A stretch of DNA of 64,000 nucleotides from Pseudomonadota bacterium. GTDB taxonomy: Bacteria > Pseudomonadota > Alphaproteobacteria > Rhodospirillales > Magnetospirillaceae. The position numbers and the translations under genes were made by a program. Position 1 is the first letter of the stretch; each line of letters begins with the position of its first letter. The notes beneath the pieces are model-generated. The model saw only the letters and a program-made list of their open reading frames with translations, made no database searches and was not told the origin of the DNA. Positions 7,744-46,015 of this stretch are shown here, piece by piece. The stretch is taken from the NCBI GenBank assembly GCA_021781575.1, contig JAJXWP010000003.1, positions 1 through 64,000 on the forward strand. Reading direction: 5' to 3'.

Positions 7744-8487
7744 TTAGCCGAACAGCTTGTCGATATCTGCCTGGCTGATCCCCTGGTTCTCCAATGCCGG
7801 CCCATTGAGCAACCGCTTCTCGTCGTCGGACTGCACCTCCGGCGGCGGCGCCAGGTCTTGGAAAGTCTCGCGCCCCCAGATATCCATCATGCGGTTCACC
7901 CGCTCCTCGATGAACTGCAGGGTTCTGACCACCTTGGTAATGCGCTGTCCGGTGATGTCCTGGAAATTACAGGCCTCGAAGATGCTGACAATAGTGTCGC
8001 GCATGTCCTCGGCCAGGCGGCCGAGAAAGCCGTCGTCAACCTGCGCGTGCAACTGTTGAGCCAGTCCGTCCAGCTTTTCCGCCGCCTCGAGTATGGTGTG
8101 GGTGGCTCGCTCGGTGGAAGAGACGATGGCATCCAGCTCATTGGTGACTGCCACCAGGCGGTCATCCTCGGCGTTCTGCGGGCGCAGCGCCGCGATCTCC
8201 GCCTTGGTGTGGTCGATGGCCAACGCCAGGGCACGGATCTCAGTCTTCAACTGGTTGACTTCGATTGACTTTTCATCGGGAAGCGGCCCCGCCGGCGCGG
8301 CCGGCCCAGCGGCGTTACCGCCGTCTCGAATGAGCTGCCCGAGGTCCCGGATCTCTTGCCGCAGCACGTCGATCGCCAAGGACAGGTCGGAAGCCTGCCC
8401 GTCGGAGCCGTTGGCTCCGGCGAGGCCCTTGGCCTTCAGCTGCCGCAATTCGGCACTGAACAACCGCTTTGAATTTACCTTGTCCAT
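7744..8487 (-). CDS. cheZ: CheZ-family CheY-P phosphatase
   Basis: A 247-aa, mainly helical protein. The CheZ active-site signature NFQDITGQRI includes D177 and Q181, matching E. coli D143/Q147, which activate water to dephosphorylate CheY-P. The extreme C-terminus, SQADIDKLFG, matches the CheY-docking tail. The middle is a long coiled-coil hairpin with heptad-rich segments. The ATG at 8487 has AAAAGGTG upstream; an in-frame extension to 8574 has no family similarity. No other che genes are adjacent. Two chemoreceptors occur elsewhere in the window, so it probably serves a dispersed chemotaxis system. Confidence 0.88.
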   Translation of the reverse strand: MDKVNSKRLFSAELRQLKAKGLAGANGSDGQASDLSLAIDVLRQEIRDLGQLIRDGGNAAGPAAPAGPLPDEKSIEVNQLKTEIRALALAIDHTKAEIAALRPQNAEDDRLVAVTNELDAIVSSTERATHTILEAAEKLDGLAQQLHAQVDDGFLGRLAEDMRDTIVSIFEACNFQDITGQRITKVVRTLQFIEERVNRMMDIWGRETFQDLAPPPEVQSDDEKRLLNGPALENQGISQADIDKLFG

Positions 8488-8583
8488 CAGCACCTTTTCC
8501 GCAGAGATCGGTCGCCGTGACCAGTGCAACCCGCCGGCCGGCCAATTCTGGGTCAAATCGAGAGAATCGTCCACTGCACATTG

Positions 8584-8708
8584 CCTTGCGCCGGAGCGGC
8601 GCTTTTGGCCTTGCGCCGGAGCGGCGCTTTTGGCCTTGCGCCGGAGCGGCGCTTTTGGCCTTGCGCCGGAGCGGCGCTTTTGGCCTTGCGCCGGAGCGGC
8701 GCTCTCGC
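8584..8708 (+). repeat. Five tandem 25-bp units, each a hairpin (four followed by TTTT)
   Basis: Unit boundaries are 8584, 8609, 8634, 8659 and 8684; the first four are identical and the last diverges only at its 3' end. Every unit contains GCGCCG-GAG-CGGCGC, a 6-bp stem with 3-nt loop; the first four are followed by TTTTGG, so on the + strand each resembles a miniature intrinsic terminator. The 25-bp period is not a multiple of 3, and the array lies between divergent cheZ and histidine kinase genes, so it is not coding. It sits about 110 bp upstream of the kinase start. Confidence 0.92.
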
Positions 8709-8759
8709 CCTCCCGGAGGATGTGTTATCATTCGCCATGGCAGATTGGATCGTGGTTGG

Positions 8760-8795
8760 ATTCTGACCGATAGTGCGGAGAGGGTCCGTCAGAAT
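8760..8795. promoter_or_regulatory. Inverted repeat upstream of the histidine kinase
   Basis: ATTCTGAC (8760-8767) and GTCAGAAT (8788-8795) are perfect inverted arms 20 nt apart, 25 bp before the kinase ATG. It could be an operator or a leader stem. The array of hairpins at 8584-8708 lies just upstream of it. Confidence 0.4.
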
Positions 8796-8819
8796 CGCTC
8801 CAGGAGGAGCCGGCTGCCC

Positions 8820-10427
8820 ATGGGAAAAGGAAAAGGAACCGTGGCATCCTCGGCAAACCAATGGTTCGGATCGGCAGGCCCGGACGACGTCGCCGGAAGC
8901 CAGGCGCCGACCCTGCTCTGGGAAGCGGTGGAAAGCATTTCCGACGGATTTGCGCTGTTCGACGCCGAAGACCAGATGGTCTTCTGCAACGGCAACTGCC
9001 GCAGACAACTGGACGGAATGGCCGATGTCATACGTCCCGGCATCCCATTCGAGACTGTTCTACGAACGGCGCTCGACAGGGGGCTGCTGATCATCCCGAA
9101 CATCGCCCCCGAGGACTGGCTGCAGCAGCGCCTGGCCGATCACCGATTGGGGCGCGGCTACCATGAAGTGGAACTGGCCTCCGGAATCTGGCTGGGGATC
9201 CGTGAATTCCGTACCCGTGACGGAGGCTGCGTCAGCATCCAGTCGGACATCACCGCTCGCAAGAAGGCCGAGCAGGCTCTTACCCACAGCGAAGAACGGT
9301 ATGCGCTGGCGCTGGCCGGAACCAATGAAGGGATTTGGGACTGGGACGTCGGCACCGACCTGATCTACGTCTCGCCACGGCTGCGCGACTTCCTCGACAT
9401 GCCGTCGGTGCCGCTGCAGTGCGGGCGCGAATGGCTGGCCTGCATCCACCCGGAAGACCGGGACCGCTATCGGGCCGCCCTGACCGACCATTTGTGCGGC
9501 CATAGCGCGTTCTTCTCCTGCCAATACCGCCTGGTCGAGGCGGCAGGTGCCCGTTGGGTCCGCCATCGCGGCCTGGCATTGCGCAACGAACAGGGCCGGG
9601 CCTTCCGAATGGCCGGATCGCTCGCCGATATCACCCGGGACAAGCTCGCCCAACTGGCCCTGGCGGAGGCCAAGGAGCAGGCCGAACTGGCCAATCGGGC
9701 GAAGACCGAATTCCTGGCCAATATGTCGCATGAATTGCGCACCCCGCTGAACGCGATCATCGGCTTCTCCGAGATCATGCTGACCGAATCCCTCGCCCCA
9801 TTGGCCAGCGACGCCCACCGCAGCCACCTGACGGAGATCCTCGACGCCGGGCGTCATTTGCTTGCCGTCATCAACGACATCCTTGATGTGTCACGCATCG
9901 AGGCCGGACAATTCACCATTCAGCCCGAACCCGTCGATATGAGCCGGGTGATGGAATCGTCGCTGCGGCTGATCCGCCTGCGGGCCGAACGGCAGGGCGT
10001 GTGCCTCGCGACCGAGTGTGGGGCACCGCCCCCGCGAATCATGGGCGACGCGCGGCTACTCAAGCAGGCATTGCTCAACCTGTTGGCGAACGCGGTCAAA
10101 TTCACACCAGGCGGCGGCACAGTAACGATCGGCTGCCGGCGGGAAGCGGACCAATCGTTCTGCTTCACCGTGACCGATACCGGAATTGGCATGAAGGAGG
10201 AAGACATTCCGACGGCATTGAGGCCATTCCGTCAGGTCGACGGCGCGCTGAACCGGCGGTACACCGGAGCCGGCCTTGGTCTACCCCTAGCCAAGGCCTT
10301 CGTCGAGTTGCACAATGGGGCGCTGACAGTTGCCAGCGTCCCCAATCAAGGGACTACCGTTACCCTGCGTTTCCCGGCAGCGCGGATTCTCGATGCGCGA
10401 CCGGAAGGCGAACCGCTTGCGGGGTGA
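8820..10427 (+). CDS. Soluble PAS-PAS sensor histidine kinase
   Basis: A 535-aa kinase without signal peptide or membrane segment. Order: PAS-like domain (about 35-145, LWEAVESISDGFALFDAEDQ onward), second PAS with PAC (about 155-280), HisKA with FLANMSHELRTPLN and phospho-acceptor H304, then HATPase with the N-box LLNLLANAVKF, DTGIGM and GAGLGL motifs. No receiver domain or adjacent response regulator is present, so its partner is unknown. ATG 8820 is 12 nt from AGGAGGAG; GTG at 8841 behind AAAGGAACC is an alternative start. The downstream EEP gene begins 3 bp after the stop, so the kinase heads a four-gene operon. Confidence 0.88.
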   Translation: MGKGKGTVASSANQWFGSAGPDDVAGSQAPTLLWEAVESISDGFALFDAEDQMVFCNGNCRRQLDGMADVIRPGIPFETVLRTALDRGLLIIPNIAPEDWLQQRLADHRLGRGYHEVELASGIWLGIREFRTRDGGCVSIQSDITARKKAEQALTHSEERYALALAGTNEGIWDWDVGTDLIYVSPRLRDFLDMPSVPLQCGREWLACIHPEDRDRYRAALTDHLCGHSAFFSCQYRLVEAAGARWVRHRGLALRNEQGRAFRMAGSLADITRDKLAQLALAEAKEQAELANRAKTEFLANMSHELRTPLNAIIGFSEIMLTESLAPLASDAHRSHLTEILDAGRHLLAVINDILDVSRIEAGQFTIQPEPVDMSRVMESSLRLIRLRAERQGVCLATECGAPPPRIMGDARLLKQALLNLLANAVKFTPGGGTVTIGCRREADQSFCFTVTDTGIGMKEEDIPTALRPFRQVDGALNRRYTGAGLGLPLAKAFVELHNGALTVASVPNQGTTVTLRFPAARILDARPEGEPLAG

Positions 10428-22116: not shown

Positions 22117-22563
22117 ATGTCACTTTACGAATGCGTGTTCATCGCACGCCAGGACATCGCCACCCCGCAGGTGGAGACCATGGCCGATGAATTCACCAAC
22201 ATCATCACCTCCCAGGGCGGCCAGGTCACCAAGCGCGAGTATTGGGGCCTGCGGAATATCGCCTATCGCATCAAGAAGAATCGCAAGGGCCACTACGTCC
22301 TGTTCAACGTCGACGCTCCGGCAGCCGCCGTCATGGAGTTCGAGCGTCAGATGTCGATCAACGAAGACGTGCTGCGCTACATGACCATTCGCGTCGACGA
22401 ACTCGAGGAAGGGCCGTCGGCGGTGATGCAAAGCAAGAACCAGCGGGACGAACGCCCGCGCCGCGACGGCGACGATCGCCCGCGCCGCGACGGCGACGAT
22501 CGCCCGCGCCGCGACGGCGGCTATGGCCGCCCGCCCCGCGCAACCGAGGGAGGTGAAGCATGA
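22117..22563 (+). CDS. rpsF: 30S ribosomal protein S6
   Basis: 148 aa. The S6 core ([14 protein letters not shown] to residue 100) is followed by a charged tail with three RPRRDG repeats. It binds 16S rRNA with S18 on the platform. AAAGGAG precedes the ATG at 22117. The tail is encoded by near-identical 24-bp repeats (22453-22476, 22477-22500, 22501-22524), so repeat number may vary among strains. Alphaproteobacterial S6 proteins often have such Arg/Asp tails. It overlaps rpsR by 4 bp. Confidence 0.96.
22453..22524 (+). repeat. Three 24-bp tandem repeats in the rpsF 3' end
   Basis: Copies at 22453-22476 and 22477-22500 are identical; the third (22501-22524) differs in its last codons. Each encodes RPRRDG plus two acidic or aromatic residues. 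The 24-bp period keeps frame. Confidence 0.9.
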
Positions 22564-30149: not shown

Positions 30150-30258
30150 CCAGACGCTTGGTTCCCAAGCGCCTGGATCAGGCGGCCCACCAACTTATTG
30201 AATTGTGGCGAGAATTTGACGGATGGTGTGGGTACCATCCGTCAAATTCTCACCACTA
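30150..30258 (+). repeat. 109-bp intergenic element, copy 1
   Basis: Copy 2 is at 45892-46000; the two differ at five positions. The unit holds a first hairpin (30151-30161 with 30165-30175, 11-bp arms and one mismatch) and a main hairpin with 23-bp arms (30205-30227 with 30234-30256) around a 6-nt loop. All five differences fall in the main hairpin: four in its arms and one in its loop. The pair T30216-A30245 here is C-G in copy 2, a compensatory change. In copy 1 T8 (30262-30269) follows, making it a plausible terminator for mlaF. Confidence 0.9.
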
Positions 30259-30269
30259 GCCTTTTTTTT
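30234..30269 (+). terminator. Intrinsic terminator of the mlaEF unit
   Basis: The 3' arm of the 23-bp hairpin (30234-30256) is followed after TAGCC by eight T residues (30262-30269). Together with the 5' arm at 30205-30227 this is a strong intrinsic terminator reading rightward from mlaF. Confidence 0.65.
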
Positions 30270-45891: not shown

Positions 45892-46000
45892 CCAGACGCT
45901 TGGTTCCCAAGCGCCTGGATCAGGCGGCCCACCAACTTATTGAATTGTGGTGAGAATCTGACGGATGGTGTGGGGACCATCCGTCAGATTTTCACCACTA
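45892..46000 (+). repeat. 109-bp intergenic element, copy 2
   Basis: Same unit as 30150-30258 with five differences. The main hairpin is 45947-45969 with 45976-45998; it keeps all 23 pairs (one as G-T wobble) although bases changed. The first hairpin is 45893-45903 with 45907-45917. It ends 15 bp before the cca ATG and therefore may lie in the cca 5' leader. No T-run follows in this copy. Confidence 0.9.
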
Positions 46001-46015
46001 GGACACGGGGCCGAG

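Follow-up and report, generated by a model that had tools for sequence, protein, structure and literature searches.

The five-unit array at positions 8584–8708 of the window (the whole 64,000-nucleotide stretch analysed) is probably a lineage-specific minisatellite, produced by tandem expansion and with little or no selected function. Direct reading confirms the preliminary description of five 25-bp units, four of them identical, each holding GCGCCG-GAG-CGGCGC, with TTTT after the first four. The unit, CCTTGCGCCGGAGCGGCGCTTTTGG, is repeated on the plus strand at 8584–8608, 8609–8633, 8634–8658 and 8659–8683, while unit 5 (8684–8708) ends in TCTCGC instead of the TTTTGG of units 1–4. Tandem Repeats Finder places the array at 8583–8703 with a period of 25, 100% matches, a score of 242 and 4.8 copies, a copy number that may be misstated in a draft assembly of 114 contigs. 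The array has the head-to-tail, near-identical units of more than ∼10 bp that define a minisatellite. The array has the top score among the seven rows found in the window and among the 28 rows found in 423,448 sampled bases of its own genome, where it is also the sole row with at least four copies, a period of at least 12 and at least 95% matches. In the congener G003, 180,000 bases yielded 14 rows, none of them within the same limits. The second-best tandem repeat of the window lies at 22447–22519 (24-bp unit, 3 copies, 97% matches).

The divergent intergenic setting described previously is borne out by domain matches on opposite strands, the array being upstream of both flanking genes. On the minus strand, cheZ (7744–8487; Pfam CheZ, E 1.1e-10) most likely starts at ATG 8487. 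A longer cheZ reading from GTG 8574 is not supported by the G003 sequence, in which a stop codon directly abuts the start. On the plus strand, a histidine kinase with PAS, HisKA and HATPase domains (8841–10427) probably starts at GTG 8841, which fits G003, with ATG 8820 as an alternative.

The history of the array can be read from comparison with G003, the only one of the 30 cheZ loci examined (the window's own included) that has a close relative of most of the kinase (68% identity) alongside; one further locus, L030, matches the kinase domain at 41%. The divergent pair is kept in G003 (81% identity for CheZ and 68% for the kinase), and the gap between the genes holds about one unit-length of sequence in place of the array. 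The two gaps align through when the array is trimmed to one unit and visibly worse with zero units, as judged by eye. Gap-affine alignment spreads the short G003 segment over several units, any of which may be ancestral, though the tail of unit 5 is most similar to G003. The start-to-start spacing is 353 bp here vs 193 bp in G003, and the 160-bp difference corresponds to four units (100 bp) plus 60 bp, a remainder equal in length to a palindromic element at 8747–8808. A DNA search with window positions 8700–8900 gave no match in four congeners including G003, though G003 does align there. Copy number differs between relatives, with about one unit-length in the single congener compared and five here. 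Because the array was not found in the other genomes searched and G003 has about one unit-length in its place, a lineage-specific expansion is implied, and the earlier suggestion of expansion by slippage gains support from these observations together with the identity of the units, the expansion history being based on this one congener.

The genome-wide scatter that the preliminary description had set against its own proposal was not found; the array is confined to this locus. The array contains five copies of the 15-bp core and the rest of the genome a single one, within a 581-aa open frame; allowing up to three mismatches in 20 bases added four single places, none of them an array. We therefore rejected a generic dispersed repeat, the unit being found at this locus only, and for the same reason it does not have the many copies of dispersed intergenic palindromes of the REP, MIRU or PU type. 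The 20-bp core plus tail was found in none of 98 relatives, and a pattern of two copies, with the 3-nt loop left free, gave no match in 384 further genomes of the class; a reversed-core control was present in 2 of 385 genomes, the real core in the window's own genome only. A genome_contigs scan of 84,980 species, which possibly omits records near the window, returned seven stretches in seven organisms with two cores 4–20 bp apart. These have other periods or spacers and in 0 of the 7 is the core followed by TTTT, so that we take them as independent GC-rich repeats and not as a wider array family. Arrays of the same 15-bp palindrome with periods of 27–28 bp were seen at L045, L047 and L048 (Oceanicella, Azospirillum and Roseomonas). 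A phage and plasmid search for the array gave no match, and a mobile or phage origin was rejected on this basis.

A lone unit folds into a 6-bp stem with a 3-nt loop. In unit 1 the hairpin and its TTTT occupy 8588–8606, as identified from sequence, folding and terminator score, and the identical feature recurs at 8613–8631, 8638–8656 and 8663–8681 in units 2–4; the hairpin of unit 5 (8688–8702) is followed by TCTC, not TTTT. Using a hairpin-plus-T-tail formula, units 1–4 score 20.4 each on the plus strand, and no qualifying terminator hairpin or T-tract is found on the minus strand of the array; its T-tracts point toward the kinase only. The designation as miniature terminators holds weakly, by sequence and on the plus strand only: the GC-rich stem-loop and following T-tract of an intrinsic terminator are found in units 1–4, with a weak score. 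Among 214 hairpins scored in a 423-kb sample of the genome, 16 outside the array exceed 20.4, and all nine candidates above 35 have longer hairpins than the array unit. A stricter terminator scan requiring five T in eight does not list the array units (4 terminators found between 7000 and 13000 vs 3.8 expected, none an array unit). When 19,993 random genomic 25-mers were placed in tandem, a test run post hoc once the array had been seen, 132 gave a qualifying hairpin, 58 a score above 0 and 9 a score of at least 20 on either strand. Since 239 of 5,000 random genomic 25-mers contain a stem of at least 6 bp, the palindrome by itself is unremarkable; the combination of stem and adjacent TTTT is, from the rarity of scores of at least 20, unlikely to arise through chance alone. 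When the whole array is folded, adjacent units pair with one another, and such pairing may compete with the local hairpins.

Downstream of the array, AGGATGTGTTATCAT (8717–8731, plus strand) is identical in G003 and includes the conserved box TGTTATCAT (8723–8731), whose form, TG-T-TATCAT, we take to be that of an extended −10 element. We infer that this box is a putative kinase promoter; a sigma-70 consensus scan that requires two hexamers reports no promoter at 8717–8731, and no clear promoter was seen for cheZ. If the box does serve as the kinase promoter, an array upstream of it would be unable to attenuate the kinase's own transcript and could act only by blocking read-through that arrives from the direction of cheZ. 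Given the position of the box, and the observation that the corresponding G003 segment forms no such hairpin on folding, the earlier proposal that the array tunes read-through into the kinase is not supported. The array may, as also proposed, shield the kinase against cheZ-side transcription.

Such shielding is the substance of one alternative to a minisatellite of little function, which we consider rather unlikely: four serial weak plus-strand terminators would stop stray or antisense transcripts arising within cheZ, leaving the kinase to be read from its own promoter only, with copy number setting the leakiness. It is consistent with a 6-bp GC stem and TTTT in each of units 1–4 at a score that chance rarely yields, with T-tracts that all face the kinase and end before the conserved −10-like box, and with reports that hairpin clusters act jointly as terminators (PMC8355165) and that operon-internal terminators restrict spurious transcription (PMC8955417). 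However, the stem is short compared with the best candidates of the genome sample, the tail is merely TTTT followed by GG, the hairpin is not conserved in G003, and four identical copies represent one evolutionary event, not four. The rarity of the terminator score, the location in a regulatory gap and the standing of the array as the strongest in the genome sample count against the favoured minisatellite of little or no function.

A perfect inverted repeat, itself repeated in a divergent regulatory gap, would also fit an array of protein-binding sites, either operators or RNA-binding targets, regulating cheZ or the kinase. We regard this as very unlikely, because the sole exact site elsewhere in the genome lies inside a coding frame, a regulator with a single array and no counterpart in G003 is improbable, the 25-bp spacing is a non-integer number of helical turns, and Rfam gave no match to the array at gathering score, with one match at chance level. 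Least credible is a translated repeat, in which the kinase (or cheZ) would start upstream and copy number would switch the frame. The unit is stop-free in all six frames, the kinase reading frame is open from 8457 and a plus-strand frame from TTG 8469 continues into the kinase; a simple gene caller indeed started the kinase at TTG 8469 and labelled the array 'coding', a call that we judged wrong and on account of which its gene-orientation classes were not used. However, the unit's composition accounts for all six frames being open, 8841 and 8487 are the start positions consistent with both species, and the 160-bp difference from G003 is not divisible by 3, which counts against a coding role; a translated array was rejected on frame.

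The nearest known cases are the promoter tandem repeats of M. tuberculosis, whose copy number is known to change (PMC12817950), and the MIRUs of the senX3-regX3 gap (PMC4213456). The former, before dop, lpdA and cysG, likewise have short units in a gene-upstream gap by a promoter, but copy change is shown within and between strains, whereas the present array comes from one assembly and has a palindromic unit. The MIRUs are likewise tandem repeats beside a sensor-kinase gene, but consist of 77/53-bp interspersed repetitive units that separate the kinase gene from the regulator gene, in contrast to a 25-bp unit at a single locus between divergent genes. The pil1 leader of Streptococcus gallolyticus (PMC3894217) also has tandem repeats together with a terminator hairpin ahead of a gene; there a 5-bp unit within a leader peptide precedes a single terminator, whereas here the hairpin lies in the repeat itself and a leader peptide is not supported. 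The palindromic units of Escherichia coli are likewise intergenic and often clustered, but they form a dispersed family (PMC2884548), unlike the array unit, and the 60-bp element at 8747–8808 fits their kind better.

Under the favoured reading as a minisatellite, one 25-bp stretch of the cheZ–kinase gap would have gained a GC-rich palindrome in this lineage and would then have been tandemly duplicated to about five copies, the likely route being replication slippage aided by the DNA hairpin of the unit. Situated between the conserved cheZ-proximal region and the −10-like box, the array would lengthen, by 25 bp or ∼2.4 helical turns per unit, the spacer that precedes the presumed kinase promoter. 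The array is probably near-neutral, and any effect is likely to be a side effect: stray plus-strand transcription might be modestly blocked, or the promoter spacing altered. As things stand, the array would be a further example of a lineage-specific minisatellite located in a promoter gap, of use at most as a strain-typing locus. There is a slim chance that slippage-prone, self-contained terminators provide a copy-number-tunable insulator upstream of the kinase promoter, in which case gain or loss of units would set the amount of stray transcription reaching the kinase. If units 1–4 do terminate transcription, they would represent a natural case of a repeat unit that is itself a terminator, with slippage shifting read-through stepwise; a partial search of the literature found no natural tandem repeat of this type.

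The element at 8747–8808 (plus strand), in the presumed kinase leader, is a diverged copy (44 of 62 positions identical, no gaps) of a dispersed, near-perfect palindrome of ∼60 bp, TTGTGGTGAGAATCTGACGGATGG...CCATCCGTCAGATTTTCACCAC, which folds into one long stem. It was not seen at the kinase-leader position in G003. Other copies in the window are found at 45942–46003 and 30200–30259, and the palindrome occurs at 29 places in the window's own genome and at no fewer than 42 in G003 (where 40 of 98 candidates were scored), with few in G002 and G004 and none in G001. It has no credible Rfam match and resembles elements of the REP or MITE kind. Further palindromes with a TCTGAC start and a GTCAGA end and with differing interiors (e.g. 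TCTGACCCAAACGGA...) recur in congeners (L092, L095 and L098 in G004 and L094 in G003) and in the window's own genome (L099), and these common ends suggest several subfamilies.
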